A DNA stretch of 53,362 nucleotides from Chlorobiota bacterium (GTDB lineage: Bacteria > Bacteroidota > Chlorobiia > Chlorobiales > Chlorobiaceae): the NCBI GenBank assembly GCA_016868665.1, contig VGGK01000015.1, positions 1-53,362 of the forward strand. Reading direction: 5' to 3'. The position numbers and the translations under genes were made by a program. Positions 4,170 through 38,700 of the stretch are shown here, one piece after another. The notes beneath the pieces were generated by a model. It did no database searches, had not been told where the DNA came from, and saw nothing but the letters and a program-made list of their open reading frames with translations. Numbering within the stretch: the stretch's first letter is position 1; each line of letters begins with the position of its first letter.

Positions 4170-5534
4170 TTATCCGAACACCATCCTGTACTCCTCCTCG
4201 GTTCGCTGGTCGGCACAGGTAACGGTGATGCGTTCGGGAATGGCGCCGAACATGGTGCCGAAGTTGCGCACGCACGAGGGCGAGGCGAAAAAGATTTCAT
4301 CGATGAAGGCGAAGTCGATGCTCTGTTCCAGCTCCTGCGCGCCGTGCTTGTACACACAGAGCGGGGTGACCCGGTTGCCGAGCGACTGCAGCCCTCCGAC
4401 GAGAAACTCGTCGTGGAGGTTCGAGCCGGGCAGAAGGATGCTCTCTCCGGTAATACCGTGCTCGCGGAACAGCGCGATGATGTCGCCGCACCCTTCACTC
4501 TCGAGCGTGAGGTCCGGAATCACACCGTGCTGCTGCAGCTCCGCCGCGGCCGCCTGTCCCGTGGTGCAGATGCGGCTGTGGGCAAGCAGGCGGACGTCGC
4601 GCCCGGTGTCGAAGAGGTACTTGAAGAAGTACTTCACCGCAAACTTGTTCTGGAAGAGCAGCACGCTGTAGCTCTTGATATCGTCGAACGAGCGGCGCAC
4701 CAGGTCGAGGTCCGCTCCCTCGATCTGCCGGCAGGGAAAGTGCACCATGATGTACCGGGTGCTGCTGTACCGCTTTGCCTCGCCGCCCGTGATGAGCACC
4801 TTCCGCTTTTTCGAGTGCCAGTTGTCGGCGATGAACTGCGCGATGTTGTCGCCGATGATGAGCAGGGCCGGCGAGTACACCGCCCGCTCGCGCATGCGGA
4901 ACTCGTCGAGCGTTCCGGTGAACACCTGCTGGTTGTAGCGCGTGGCGTTCTGCACCACGGCCACTTTCGTCTCCGGACTGCGCCCTTTTTCGGCAACGGC
5001 ATCGAGCACGTCGTGCACAGTTGAAGCCACCATATAGTAGACCAGCGTATCGGCGTCCGGCACCTGGATGCTGCTGACCGGATGGCCGGTGCAGAATGCA
5101 ACAGACGAAGATACCTTGCGCATGGTGAGCGGTATTTCGGTGTAGGCACTCGCGCCGTGCGCGGCCGTGATGCCGGGAATGATTTCGTACCCCACGCCGT
5201 TTTTACGCAACTCGTCGATCTCCTCCCCTCCCCTGCCAAACACGAAGGGGTCTCCCCCCTTCAGCCGGGCAACGATTTTGCCCTGCAGGGCATGGCGCAC
5301 GATTTCACGGTTGATCTCCTCCTGCTCGAAATGGTGGCTGTCCTTGCGTTTTCCGGTATAGATTTTCTGCCCGCTGAACTGGTCCACCAGTTCAAGCGAG
5401 ACGAGGTCGTCGTAGAGGATCACGTCGGCATCCTGCAGCACCCGCTGCGCCTTGACGGTCAGCAGTTCCGGATCGCCCGGTCCCGCGCCGATGATGTAGA
5501 CGTATCCTTTTTTTCCTGTTTCGGTGGCAGTCAT
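4170..5534 (-). CDS. dsrW: DsrW: uroporphyrinogen-III C-methyltransferase fused to uroporphyrinogen-III synthase
   Basis: The 454-residue protein joins two tetrapyrrole enzymes. Residues about 8-245 are a CobA/SUMT domain: [45 protein letters not shown] and [11 protein letters not shown], the SAM and substrate motifs. It converts uroporphyrinogen III to precorrin-2. Residues about 250-454 resemble HemD, which closes the tetrapyrrole ring (KVLITGG start, later TVTCADQRT). Placed last in the dsr set behind DsrV, it probably feeds siroheme to DsrAB. A primary biosynthetic copy may exist elsewhere in the genome. The SUMT call is strong; the HemD half is more divergent. Confidence 0.9.
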
Positions 5535-5561
5535 GATCTTGTACTTCCTTTTCTATTCCGT

Positions 5562-6023
5562 TTACTGCAGGAGCGTGTCATCCTCCTGCATCATCTCCCT
5601 TATTTTATTTCGCCATGCGACCGACTTCTTCACGTTCTCGCCGTTCGAGGAGACGGTGATGGTCATTTCGTCCTTGCGGATGACGGCCGGCGAAATGAAG
5701 CTCGACAGCTCCCGGTTATCCACAACGTTCACGAGAATGCCGAGCCGGTCGGCATCCGCCTTTATCTGCCGGTTCACCTCTTCGTCGTTCGTGCTCGCAT
5801 AAACGAGAAAAGCCCCTTCGAGATCGGAGCGTTCGTACCGCTTAATGATTTCCGTGAACCCTTTGCCCTGCAAATCATGATGAATCTCCGGAGCGAGAAT
5901 GGTAATGTTGCGGGTGTACTGTTCGACGGTCTGAATTTTGTGCATGGCGATCTTGCCGCCGCCGACGAACAGGATTTTCCTGTTGTCGATCCGGATGTTG
6001 AGCGGAAGAAATACTTTTTTCAT
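5562..6023 (-). CDS. dsrV: DsrV: precorrin-2 dehydrogenase (siroheme synthase N-domain)
   Basis: The 153-residue protein matches the NAD-binding half of CysG/Met8. It has [21 protein letters not shown] (the GGG-x-x-A-x-x-K Rossmann turn), [13 protein letters not shown], and [31 protein letters not shown], the family catalytic and dimerisation region. It should oxidise precorrin-2 to sirohydrochlorin, and members often insert iron as well. It lacks the SUMT half of CysG, which DsrW next door supplies. The start is ATG 6023, 10 bp from the tandem-repeat block, and no strong ribosome site is seen. Two terminator-like hairpins lie upstream, so it may be transcribed less than dsrP or separately. 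Confidence 0.9.
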
Positions 6024-6033
6024 AAATGCTCAA

Positions 6034-6141
6034 TTAGCTGGTTAGCTGGTTAGCTGGTTAGCTGGTTAGCTGGTTAGCTGGTTAGCTGGTTAGCTGGTTA
6101 GCTGGTTAGCTGGTTAGCTGGTTAGCTGGTTAGCTGGTTAG
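6034..6141. repeat. 8-bp tandem repeat, TTAGCTGG x 13.5
   Basis: The unit TTAGCTGG is repeated perfectly 13.5 times over 108 bp. It ends 10 bp upstream of the dsrV start. Perfect copies suggest recent slippage expansion. The unit is not a multiple of three and is non-coding, so length changes would alter only the dsrV leader. Confidence 0.97.
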
Positions 6142-6162
6142 AAAAAAACCGGCTTTCAGCCG
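6142..6162 (-). terminator. Terminator-like hairpin upstream of dsrV
   Basis: On the minus strand CGGCT-GAA-AGCCG forms a 5-bp GC-rich stem with a 3-nt loop, followed after one G by seven Ts. This has the shape of a short intrinsic terminator. Confidence 0.55.
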
Positions 6163-6238
6163 TCTTAAATTCCCGGTTTCGGAAAATTCTTTTACTGAAA
6201 ATAGCGTTTTTCCGCGGCGTGTAAGCCATCTGCCACAT

Positions 6239-6270
6239 AAAAAAGCCTGCCTTCAGACGAAAGCAGGCTT
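6239..6270 (-). terminator. Intrinsic terminator after dsrP
   Basis: On the minus strand AAGCCTGC pairs with GCAGGCTT across a 12-nt loop and runs directly into a T-tract. It lies 31 bp past the dsrP stop. With the second hairpin nearby it suggests that most transcripts end before dsrV-dsrW. Confidence 0.75.
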
Positions 6271-35535: not shown

Positions 35536-35550
35536 ACGCCCTGCACAAGA

Positions 35551-35585
35551 AAAAACGCCTCCATTCAAGCAGGCGTTTTTCTTTT
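35551..35585 (+). terminator. Intrinsic terminator of the nif operon
   Basis: AAAAACGCCT and AGGCGTTTTT form a perfect 10-bp stem with a 10-nt loop. It is T-rich on the 3' side (GTTTTTCTTTTC), 15 bp past the ferredoxin stop. The A-rich left arm could also terminate leftward transcripts. Confidence 0.9.
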
Positions 35586-35757
35586 CCTGTCGCACCGGCA
35601 AAATCACGAAACCAGGCCGGTTATTCATGCCCTCATCCCGACTTCCGCATGCTCGCAATCCTGAAAAAAATCGCCCGTAACCGCCACGGAAGCCATTCTT
35701 TCACCTGAAACTCTTATTTTGCGCTGACGGCCCGCTAACAACCTTACCAGAACAGTG

Positions 35758-36570
35758 ATGGCAAAATGCGCCAAACAGCAGATAGGGCTTGAAGGCTCAA
35801 TCTGGTTCCAGAAGGCGGAAAACCGCTTTCTCGGCGGCGACCGCATTCTGCTGCTTGAAAAAATCGACGAGCTCGGATCGATCAACAGCGCGGCAAAAGC
35901 GGTCGGCATCAGCTACAAAACCGCATGGCATCTGGTCAACATGATCAACAACCTTTCCGACAAACCGCTCGTCGATCGCATGACCGGCGGAAAAGGCGGC
36001 GGCGGCACGGTACTCACGCGCGAAGGAAAAAACGTCATCGCACAATTCCGCATCGTACAGGAAGAACACCGTAAATTTCTTGAAAATCTTGAAGTACGGC
36101 TTGGCGAAACACAAAACCTCTACCGATTCCTGAGGAGGATATCCATGAGAATCAGTGCACGGAACGTTTTTTCCGGTACCATCGAAAATATCACCCTCGG
36201 AGCGGTCAATGCCGAAGTCGTGCTTGCACTCCCCAGCGGACCGCGCATCACCTCCGTCATCACCATCGGCGCGGTGCAGAACCTCGGACTCAAAAAGGGC
36301 ATGAACGCCTACGCCATCATCAAATCCAACTCGGTCATCGTCGGCCGCGACCTGCACGACGCCCGAATCAGCGCCCGGAACATCCTCTGCGGCACAATCA
36401 GCAAAATCCTCGAAGGACCGGTCAGCACGGAAATCGACGTGGAAATAGGCGACGGCAACGTCATATCAGCCATTATCACCCACGGAAGTTCCGAAAAACT
36501 CGGACTCAGGGAAGGAGAACACGCCTGCGCGCTCTTCAAAGCCTCGAGCGTCATCCTCGGCGTCAACTGA
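35758..36570 (+). CDS. modE: ModE-type molybdate-responsive regulator
   Basis: ATG 35758 (MAKCAKQQIGLEGSIWFQKA) gives 270 residues. The N-terminal winged helix-turn-helix is ModE-like (ALLEKIDELGSINSAAKAVGISYKTAWHLVNMINN, GGKGGGGTVLTREG). Two molybdopterin-binding TOBE/Mop domains follow (about 125-190 and 200-270; each starts with RISARN-V/I-x-x-GTI). Full-length ModE dimers bind molybdate at the TOBE domains and then bind DNA. It stands between the nif operon and the small-peptide/radical SAM pair. No molybdate transporter genes are in the window. Confidence 0.92.
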   Translation: MAKCAKQQIGLEGSIWFQKAENRFLGGDRILLLEKIDELGSINSAAKAVGISYKTAWHLVNMINNLSDKPLVDRMTGGKGGGGTVLTREGKNVIAQFRIVQEEHRKFLENLEVRLGETQNLYRFLRRISMRISARNVFSGTIENITLGAVNAEVVLALPSGPRITSVITIGAVQNLGLKKGMNAYAIIKSNSVIVGRDLHDARISARNILCGTISKILEGPVSTEIDVEIGDGNVISAIITHGSSEKLGLREGEHACALFKASSVILGVN

Positions 36571-36646: not shown

Positions 36647-36760
36647 GCGTTATACACGACTCAATAGCACATAACCCCGCCCCAGCGGAACAAAGCAGTT
36701 CAATCATTACAAACAGTTGGTTCCATTTTTCTATTAATGAAAAAAAACGAGGAGTCCATC

Positions 36761-36970
36761 ATGGCAAAACTCACCGAAAAGCCGGTTATCGCAGCAATGA
36801 CGGCAGCGGAAAAAATCCGCCCGTTTCCGATCAACTGGGATCCGGTTCCCGACTGGGTCCGTCTGGACGATAAAAAACTTGCAGAGTTCGGAAGGCTCCA
36901 GATTCAGTCGAAACTCAAGGAACTCGAAATTGAAAAAGCCAAACTCGAACAACTTGCAAAACTGATGTGA
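36761..36970 (+). CDS. Small protein (69 aa), candidate peptide substrate of the adjacent radical SAM enzyme
   Basis: ATG 36761 is preceded at 6 bp by GAGGAG and gives 69 residues starting MAKLTEKPVIAAMTAAEKI; an upstream ATG at 36737 in the same frame has no ribosome site. The middle is Pro/Trp-rich (RPFPINWDPVPDWVRLDD). The last 30 or so residues form a charged heptad-like helix ending EQLAKLM. There are no cysteines, no signal peptide and no recognised family. The stop lies just before a strong hairpin and then a B12/radical SAM gene. Size, position and spacing resemble a ribosomal precursor peptide or a small partner protein of that enzyme; this is inference. Confidence 0.75.
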   Translation: MAKLTEKPVIAAMTAAEKIRPFPINWDPVPDWVRLDDKKLAEFGRLQIQSKLKELEIEKAKLEQLAKLM

Positions 36971-36983
36971 CTGATCGCTCCGG

Positions 36984-37013
36984 ACAGGAGGCGGAAAAAC
37001 CGCCGCCTCCTGT
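36984..37013. other. GC-rich hairpin between small gene and radical SAM gene
   Basis: ACAGGAGGCGG pairs exactly with CCGCCTCCTGT (11 bp) around an 8-nt loop, 13 bp past the small-gene stop. No T-tract follows. It encloses an AGGAGG sequence in its stem. It could lower read-through or translation of the enzyme relative to the small protein. Confidence 0.8.
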
Positions 37014-37068
37014 TCCGATCCCTCCCTCGCTTCAACAGATTTTCCGCCATTTCAGGCTCCCCTTGGTC

Positions 37069-38700
37069 ATGGATGCACAACACCGGCATAAAAAAGGCAT
37101 TCTTCTTGTAGGTTATGAAAACCAGGAAAACCTGGGTTTGCGCTCCATAATCGCCTCTCTCCGGAAAAACGGCCATAAAGCCGAACTGCAGCCTTTTTTT
37201 CCCGGCAGCAACCATGATGCCGTACTCGAAACCATAGAAAAGCTGAACCCCGACCTTATCGGATTCTCGCTCATCTTTCAGTTCACCCTCGAACACTTTG
37301 CCGAGCTTATGCGCTATCTCCGCCGACACGGCGTCACGGCGCACTTCACTGCCGGAGGCCATTTTCCCAGCCTCCGCCCGGCAGAAACACTTGAACTCAT
37401 TCCCGAACTCGACAGCATCGTACGATTCGAAGGAGAAGAAAGCATCATCGATCTCTACACGAAGCTCGACGAACCGTCCGGGTGGCCGGAAATACAGAGT
37501 ATCGCCTACCGGAACGGAAACAGCGTCCTACAGACCCCGCTCAGACCGCTCATCGAAAACCTCGACGATATTCCCCCGGTCATTCGCGACGGCTCCATCA
37601 CAACCACAGCCGGCATAAAAACCGCATACATGCTCGCAAGCCGCGGCTGTCATTTCAACTGTTCCTTCTGCAGCATCCGGCAGTTTTACGGCACGGCGCA
37701 GGGCAAACTCCGGAGAACGAGATCGCCCCTTCACGTCGCCGAAGAGATGCGCGACCTCTTCACACACAAAAACGTACGTTTTTTCAGTTTTCAGGACGAC
37801 GATTTCGCAGCACGCTCCCCGGCACAGAAACAATGGATCGGCGAATTCCTCAGGGAACTGCGAAACTGCGGCCTCGACGGAAACATCAGATGGAAAATAT
37901 CCTGCAGGGTTGACGACGTCGAACCGTTGCTCTTTCGGGAAATGGCCTTGCACGGCCTTTTCGCTGTCTATCTCGGCGTCGAATCCGGAAACGAAACGGG
38001 CCTGAAAACCCTCAACAAGCAAACAACCGTCGGCAGAAACCTCGAAGCCATCGAAACCCTCAAAGCAATGGGTTTTGCCCTCTCCGCAGGTTTCATGCTC
38101 TTCGATCCATCCTCCACATTCCCTACCGTCCGGGAAAACATCAGGTTTCTTGCCGCAACAGGCAGCGACGGTTATTTTCCCGTAAATTTCGGCAAAATGC
38201 TCCCATACGCAGGAACACCGATAGAACAGGAACTCAGGCTCCAGGGAAAACTCAAAGGAACGCTGACGCACCCCGACTACGACTTCCCCGATACGGAACT
38301 CGACTGGTACGCGTTCCTCGTTCAGAAACTCTTCGCAAAACGGAACTTCAGCCCCGAAGGAGTGGCGGCTCTGCTCGGTACCGATTTCGAATACCGCCTC
38401 GCAGCGGCTTTCGGACTCGACAACTCGCCCGAACGCACAGCCGCCATGAAAAAAAATATCGCCCGATCCAACGCCCTTGCGACCCGGACGCTCGGCAGAC
38501 TGCTTGACGCCGTCACAACGATGGGCACGCAAGCCCTGCTGCGCGAAGAAGAAACAATCCTCTCCATAGCCGACGAACTATGGACCGGCGAAGCCGAAAT
38601 AACCGCTCAGAACATGAAACTCCGCCGTGACCTCCACGATGCCATCGAAAAGAGCCCCGAAGCCGCATGTTTGCAGCGAAACGAAGATAGCATATCTTAG
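37069..38700 (+). CDS. B12-binding-domain radical SAM enzyme of unknown substrate
   Basis: I prefer ATG 37069 (MDAQHRHKKGILLVGYENQE, 543 residues) because a GTG at 36967 would add 34 low-complexity Pro-rich residues encoded across a strong hairpin. Residues about 8-130 form a cobalamin-binding Rossmann-like domain (ILLVGYENQENLGLRSI, GFSLIFQFTLEHF, FTAGGHFPSL). The radical SAM motif is CHFNCSFCSIRQFYG (CxxxCxxC, about residue 195), followed by SFQDDDFA and VYLGVESGNETGLKTLNK. A C-terminal helical domain of about 130 residues is not recognised. Class B enzymes of this kind often methylate unactivated carbons. The substrate could be the 69-residue neighbour, a cofactor or a pigment precursor; BchE/BchQ/BchR-type sequences are similar in architecture. 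Confidence 0.85.
   Translation: MDAQHRHKKGILLVGYENQENLGLRSIIASLRKNGHKAELQPFFPGSNHDAVLETIEKLNPDLIGFSLIFQFTLEHFAELMRYLRRHGVTAHFTAGGHFPSLRPAETLELIPELDSIVRFEGEESIIDLYTKLDEPSGWPEIQSIAYRNGNSVLQTPLRPLIENLDDIPPVIRDGSITTTAGIKTAYMLASRGCHFNCSFCSIRQFYGTAQGKLRRTRSPLHVAEEMRDLFTHKNVRFFSFQDDDFAARSPAQKQWIGEFLRELRNCGLDGNIRWKISCRVDDVEPLLFREMALHGLFAVYLGVESGNETGLKTLNKQTTVGRNLEAIETLKAMGFALSAGFMLFDPSSTFPTVRENIRFLAATGSDGYFPVNFGKMLPYAGTPIEQELRLQGKLKGTLTHPDYDFPDTELDWYAFLVQKLFAKRNFSPEGVAALLGTDFEYRLAAAFGLDNSPERTAAMKKNIARSNALATRTLGRLLDAVTTMGTQALLREEETILSIADELWTGEAEITAQNMKLRRDLHDAIEKSPEAACLQRNEDSIS

Follow-up and report, generated by a model that had tools for sequence, protein, structure and literature searches.

A two-gene unit of a small protein and a putative cobalamin-dependent radical SAM enzyme in green sulfur bacteria

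A gene encoding a protein of 69 residues and the gene that follows it, encoding a putative cobalamin-dependent radical SAM enzyme, form a real unit in a few green sulfur bacteria. We met this unit in the window, i.e. the whole stretch of DNA that was analysed (53,362 nucleotides, contig VGGK01000015.1 of a Chlorobiota bacterium). We favour, at a probability of roughly 0.55, a reading in which the unit is self-contained and horizontally mobile, and in which the small protein is produced in excess, is modified by the enzyme and stays inside the cell. A more specific form of this reading is only tentative: a mobile two-gene system that would yield, inside green sulfur bacteria, an intact and non-secreted helical protein modified on Trp and recognised through its C-terminal helix instead of a leader.

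Among class B radical SAM enzymes, only a few have had their substrates identified. In this case a candidate of about 69 residues is encoded next door, and since the two genes make up the whole evident system, the question is tractable by reconstitution. If the favoured reading is true, a non-secreted modified small protein moving between genomes would count as an uncommon type of accessory trait for phototrophic bacteria.

Distribution and genomic sites of the pair

The gene layout described by the first-pass annotation (small gene, hairpin, enzyme and moaA, with modE upstream) agrees with the open reading frames and the Pfam matches, and the good ribosome site that it gave to the 69-codon gene is there (Table 1). 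This site has counterparts at the equivalent position in two other genomes, AAGGAG in G004 and AAGGAGA in G304.

Table 1. Features of the pair and its neighbours in the window
Feature	Position	Strand	Basis or remark
modE	35755-36570		upstream of small gene
Ribosome-binding site AGGAG	36750..36754	+	read from letters; 6 bases 5' of small-gene ATG
Small gene, 69 aa	36761..36970	+	5 homologues; variable N-terminus, WDPVPDW motif, C-terminal helix
Codons W26-D-P-V-P-D-W32, candidate modification site	36836..36856	+	alignment of five
Codons of predicted C-terminal helix (residues 37-68), candidate recognition element	36869..36964	+	AlphaFold and alignment
Hairpin, candidate partial terminator/attenuator	36982..37015	+	fold; stem 36982-36994 with 37003-37015
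Putative cobalamin-dependent (class B) radical SAM enzyme, 543 aa from ATG 37069	37069..38700	+	Pfam and five orthologues
B12-binding domain	37114..37443	+	Pfam PF02310, residues 50-159 of GTG-started ORF, 65.6 bits
Radical SAM core	37639..38112	+	Pfam PF04055, residues 225-382, 69.3 bits
Cluster motif C-x3-C-x2-C (CHFNCSFC)	37648-37671	+	within radical SAM core
moaA	38758-39762		downstream of enzyme; Mob_synth_C domain

Separate searches with the two genes across 98 genomes of the class located the small protein in five genomes, all of one genus, and the enzyme in the identical five: G000, which is the window genome, G004, G028, G250 and G304. In each of them the two genes are adjacent, on the same strand, with the small gene first. 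The pairing proposed in the first-pass annotation is thereby upheld; the small gene, whose absence beside a conserved enzyme would have spoken against it, accompanies the enzyme in every case. Were the draws independent, both searches would single out the same five of 98 genomes about once in 68 million times; the carrier genomes are related, however, and it is more prudent to count three independent loci. No third gene is common to all five loci. As the first-pass annotation had remarked of the window, no transporter or protease gene is adjacent, and none is shared near any of the five copies.

Among 394 genomes drawn from the phylum we found no further ortholog of the enzyme; for the small protein there was one weak extra match (G133, E 0.006), which falls within a 498-aa frame and was not counted. 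Plasmids and phages gave no match to the small protein. A scan of genome contigs for exact octamers returned only L001; it missed the G028/G250/G304 type and may have overlooked diverged relatives. Matches on viral contigs were discarded as chance, WDPAPDW lying in a primase-helicase-like protein and WDPVPEW in unrelated ORFs. The small ORFs beside plasmid relatives of the enzyme (L033, L121, L122) bear no resemblance to this small gene, and a defence role was rejected, the PADLOC match being weak (33.7 bits).

The unit occupies three unrelated places across the five genomes. In G000 it stands between modE and moaA, which adjoin without it in G001 and G180; in G028 and G250 it stands between comEC and ald, which adjoin in G018, G006 and G023, and G028 and G018 share 84-85% identity in the DNA flanking this position on either side; in G304 its surroundings contain Fic and AbiE-type genes. 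Four genomes whose modE is 83-87% identical to that of the window (G180, G032, G001 and G162) are without a copy, whereas G028, G250 and G304 have one though they are more distant (75-77%). This patchy distribution is compatible with horizontal transfer, or with repeated loss plus relocation.

The surroundings of the copies differ in other respects. The comEC-ald interval is variable: a methyltransferase gene follows the pair in G250 (L030:4054-4686), and a 45-aa remnant of this methyltransferase lies next to ald, without the pair, in G112 (L128:7530-9100). AbiE-like genes lie to either side of the G304 pair, along with genes for two Fic-domain proteins, one like SoFic (161.8 bits); the pair thus lies in an island of the defence/toxin-antitoxin type (L031:2639-4515, 5066-6250, 9207-9967 and 10839-12332). 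In G004 the interval between ferredoxin and modE (L025:7922-11744) holds genes for a 763-aa protein, TonB-receptor-like by eye, and for ModA-like and ModB-like proteins, all missing at the matching spot of the window (35536-35754); moaA is missing after the enzyme of G004.

The two proteins and the hairpin between their genes

The small proteins are 48-72% identical to the window copy among the five genomes, and the dN/dS of their gene, 0.14-0.31 where computable, points to purifying selection; the enzyme gene is also under purifying selection. Residues 1-25 vary in sequence and length. They are followed by a W-D-P-x-P-x-W motif common to all five copies (W26, D27, P28, P30 and W32 are invariant, as is D36 beyond it), in which the two Trp residues singled out by the first-pass annotation never vary. 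The most conserved part is the helix block LxxFGxLQIxxKLKELExxKxKLEQL, with 18 invariant positions within residues 40-65. AlphaFold predicts a single helix over residues 37-68 (mean pLDDT 93 over residues 41-60), with hydrophobic residues at 40, 43, 46, 48, 52, 55, 62 and 65. A helix is thus predicted as announced, but to call it a heptad helix was too strong, because these positions fit the heptad only in part. The protein has no family match in Pfam, NCBIfam or PADLOC, and its helix model no match in the PDB.

The small genes of G028 and G250 probably start at the second ATG, because GGAGAG stands before it. A 5' leader is conserved among G028, G250 and G304 (TTGCC...AC-AGG-T-GGCTAT-ACC--GC...TAAA-CAA-GGAGA; L026:11630-11705, + strand; L030:6655-6720, - strand; L031:7150-7230, + strand), and that of G028 could form a hairpin or a pseudoknot, GCCAAC/GTTGGC with GCCCGG/CCGGGC. 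A leader of this type is not evident in G000 and G004, and Rfam is without match.

The enzyme carries an N-terminal B12-binding domain, then a radical SAM core, both above the Pfam cut-offs (PF02310 and PF04055), and the cluster motif reads CHFNCSFC or CYFNCSFC in all five orthologues (59-80% identity to the window copy), its three Cys being invariant. On these domains and this motif we assign it to the cobalamin-dependent, or class B, radical SAM enzymes. Pfam finds only these two domains and no PqqD-like (RRE) match, although a divergent RRE could escape it. The structure model built from the five sequences reached a pLDDT of 54.5 and was left out of fold searching.

The hairpin reported after the small gene is real; its stem is of 13 bp and its loop of 8, with a computed folding energy of -41.1 kcal/mol (z -3.1) for the 116 nt that enclose it. 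A strong hairpin occurs at the same place in the intergenic stretch of all five loci with differing sequence, the stems of G000 and G004 being unrelated to those of G028, G250 and G304; in G028 a run of U follows the stem. Between G000 and G004, five of the 13 pairs differ and all remain paired, two by compensatory change, in a comparison whose two-sequence shuffle control has low power (130/500). Random stretches of the same locus reach the hairpin energy in 1.2% of cases for G000, 11.2% for G004, 1.6% for G028, 3.6% for G250 and 0.8% for G304; by itself such a hairpin is not rare, as G004 illustrates. The enzyme frame is open upstream to a GTG at 36967, and homologues align from the Met at 37069, so that the hairpin most likely sits between the genes and not within the enzyme gene. 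The hairpin is most simply read as a partial terminator, which would leave the second product less abundant than the first. Rfam has no family reaching threshold near the pair.

Substrate, subunit or passenger

Altogether, the constant pairing, the gene order, the hairpin, the Trp/Pro motif by a conserved helix and a class of enzyme that includes peptide modifiers favour an enzyme with its substrate. The C-terminal helix would be the part recognised by the enzyme, and the W-D-P-x-P-x-W stretch before it, most likely one of its Trp, the modified site; by curbing read-through towards the enzyme gene, the hairpin would keep substrate in excess over enzyme. C-methylation, the commonest chemistry of class B radical SAM enzymes, is the candidate modification, and a crosslink is possible. 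Ribosomal peptides are known substrates of B12 radical SAM enzymes: ApyD makes beta-methyltyrosine (PMC11117315), and the crosslinking of ortho-tyrosines in a peptide was ascribed to a B12 radical SAM enzyme (PMC12257519). Because the pair is accompanied by neither a peptidase nor an exporter, the product would probably be a small modified protein that remains intact and intracellular; the lack of these genes and of a leader-like N-terminus favours such an internal product over a classical RiPP. Several points count against a substrate: small molecules are substrates of class B enzymes as well (OxsB, BchE), conservation is centred on the C-terminal helix where a leader would be N-terminal, peptidase and exporter are lacking, Pfam shows no recognition domain in the enzyme, a hairpin of this strength is by itself no rarity, and the five sequences compared represent about three independent loci.

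The main rival, which we hold possible though well short of probable, makes the small protein an accessory subunit or adaptor (a stabiliser, a docking helix or an activator) of an enzyme acting on a small molecule or on another protein of the cell. It agrees with the helix being the best conserved part, with processing genes not travelling with the pair and with the many class B enzymes that use small molecules, OxsB being among the distant relatives of this one. Against it, an equimolar partner needs no strong hairpin before the enzyme gene, and the closest family scores of the enzyme point to no single substrate. A subunit thus accounts for the helix as well as a substrate does, and for the hairpin less well.

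That the pair makes a secreted or signalling peptide of the RiPP type, with protease and exporter encoded elsewhere in the genome, seems unlikely. A gene of precursor size does stand directly 5' of a class B radical SAM enzyme, as the 69-aa gene does in all five loci, the distribution is patchy and mobile, and one copy lies within the Fic/AbiE island. However, a conserved leader, a separate core and cleavage by a peptidase are not found: the 25 N-terminal residues vary, and the conserved block reaches the C-terminus. Since no shared peptidase or transporter was found near the five copies, Pfam matched no RRE-type domain, and the conserved part is C-terminal, the pair does not look like a standard RiPP.

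Still less credible is an enzyme of tetrapyrrole (bacteriochlorophyll) or hopanoid synthesis with the small gene as a passenger, an outcome that the first-pass annotation had named as fatal to its proposal. Green sulfur bacteria do methylate bacteriochlorophyll with radical SAM methyltransferases (PMC7242693), and BchE gives the best named profile, yet at 118 bits against a cut-off of 481. No NCBIfam model is in fact reached by the enzyme, the next scores being those of PhpK (103), ApyD (94) and HpnR (84) for cut-offs of 481-750. A tree that also includes the other class B enzymes of the window genome and relatives from plasmids places the five copies in one clade (100/100), apart from the genome's BchE and from two BchE-like proteins, presumably BchQ and BchR; forcing them together with BchE-type proteins costs 23 log-likelihood units, a weak rejection (AU p 0.033). 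For hopanoids the decision is less firm: the HpnR profile is far below its cut-off of 650 bits, but a forced grouping with HpnR is not rejected (p 0.147), on long branches. The enzyme would accordingly group with neither the bacteriochlorophyll nor, with more reserve, the hopanoid enzymes, and the small gene is kept in all five genomes.

A function tied to molybdenum or nitrogen fixation, e.g. in the maturation of nitrogenase or its cofactor, is mostly refuted: the link to molybdenum genes drawn in the first-pass annotation fits the window pair, between modE and moaA and downstream of nif genes, and the G004 pair, also beside modE, but the three other copies lie elsewhere, modE and moaA adjoin in relatives that lack the pair, and 58 of the 65 genomes of the genus possess modE against five that possess the pair, so that this neighbourhood is local context and no functional clue.

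Comparison with known systems

The nearest relative found elsewhere, and the best match in the plasmid collection, is a class B enzyme of the Sinorhizobium sojae plasmid pSJ05684b (H1, L032), 32% identical over 66% of the enzyme; it sits among genes for other oxidoreductases and methyltransferases, and the 80-aa ORF beside it is different from the small gene. This unannotated cluster (L032:1477-8809) comprises by eye the 80-aa ORF, a 732-aa radical-SAM-like protein, the class B enzyme, and aldo-keto-reductase-like, methyltransferase-like and oxygenase-like ORFs. On a Burkholderia stagnalis plasmid (L033:212-5737), three class B radical SAM genes surround a 55-aa ORF; a gene for an insulinase-family peptidase precedes them and AzlC/AzlD genes follow. 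This cluster is RiPP-like and unrelated to the present pair.

Among enzymes with solved structures, phmmer detects OxsB and TokK as relatives, at 61 and 27 bits. They act in small-molecule antibiotic pathways and, unlike this enzyme, are not known to have a comparable small-protein partner. BchE and the proteins of BchQ/BchR type, the latter identity being presumed, share the class B architecture and the same genome; by contrast, the enzyme described here forms a separate clade, reaches no family cut-off and travels with a small gene.

The clusters of ApyA/ApyD type (PMC11117315) are alike in that a small gene for a ribosomal product lies beside a cobalamin-dependent radical SAM enzyme. The ApyD profile nevertheless gives 93.8 bits with this enzyme, for a cut-off of 750; the five loci share no MNIO, P450, RRE protein or methyltransferase partner, and the conserved block is here the C-terminal helix.
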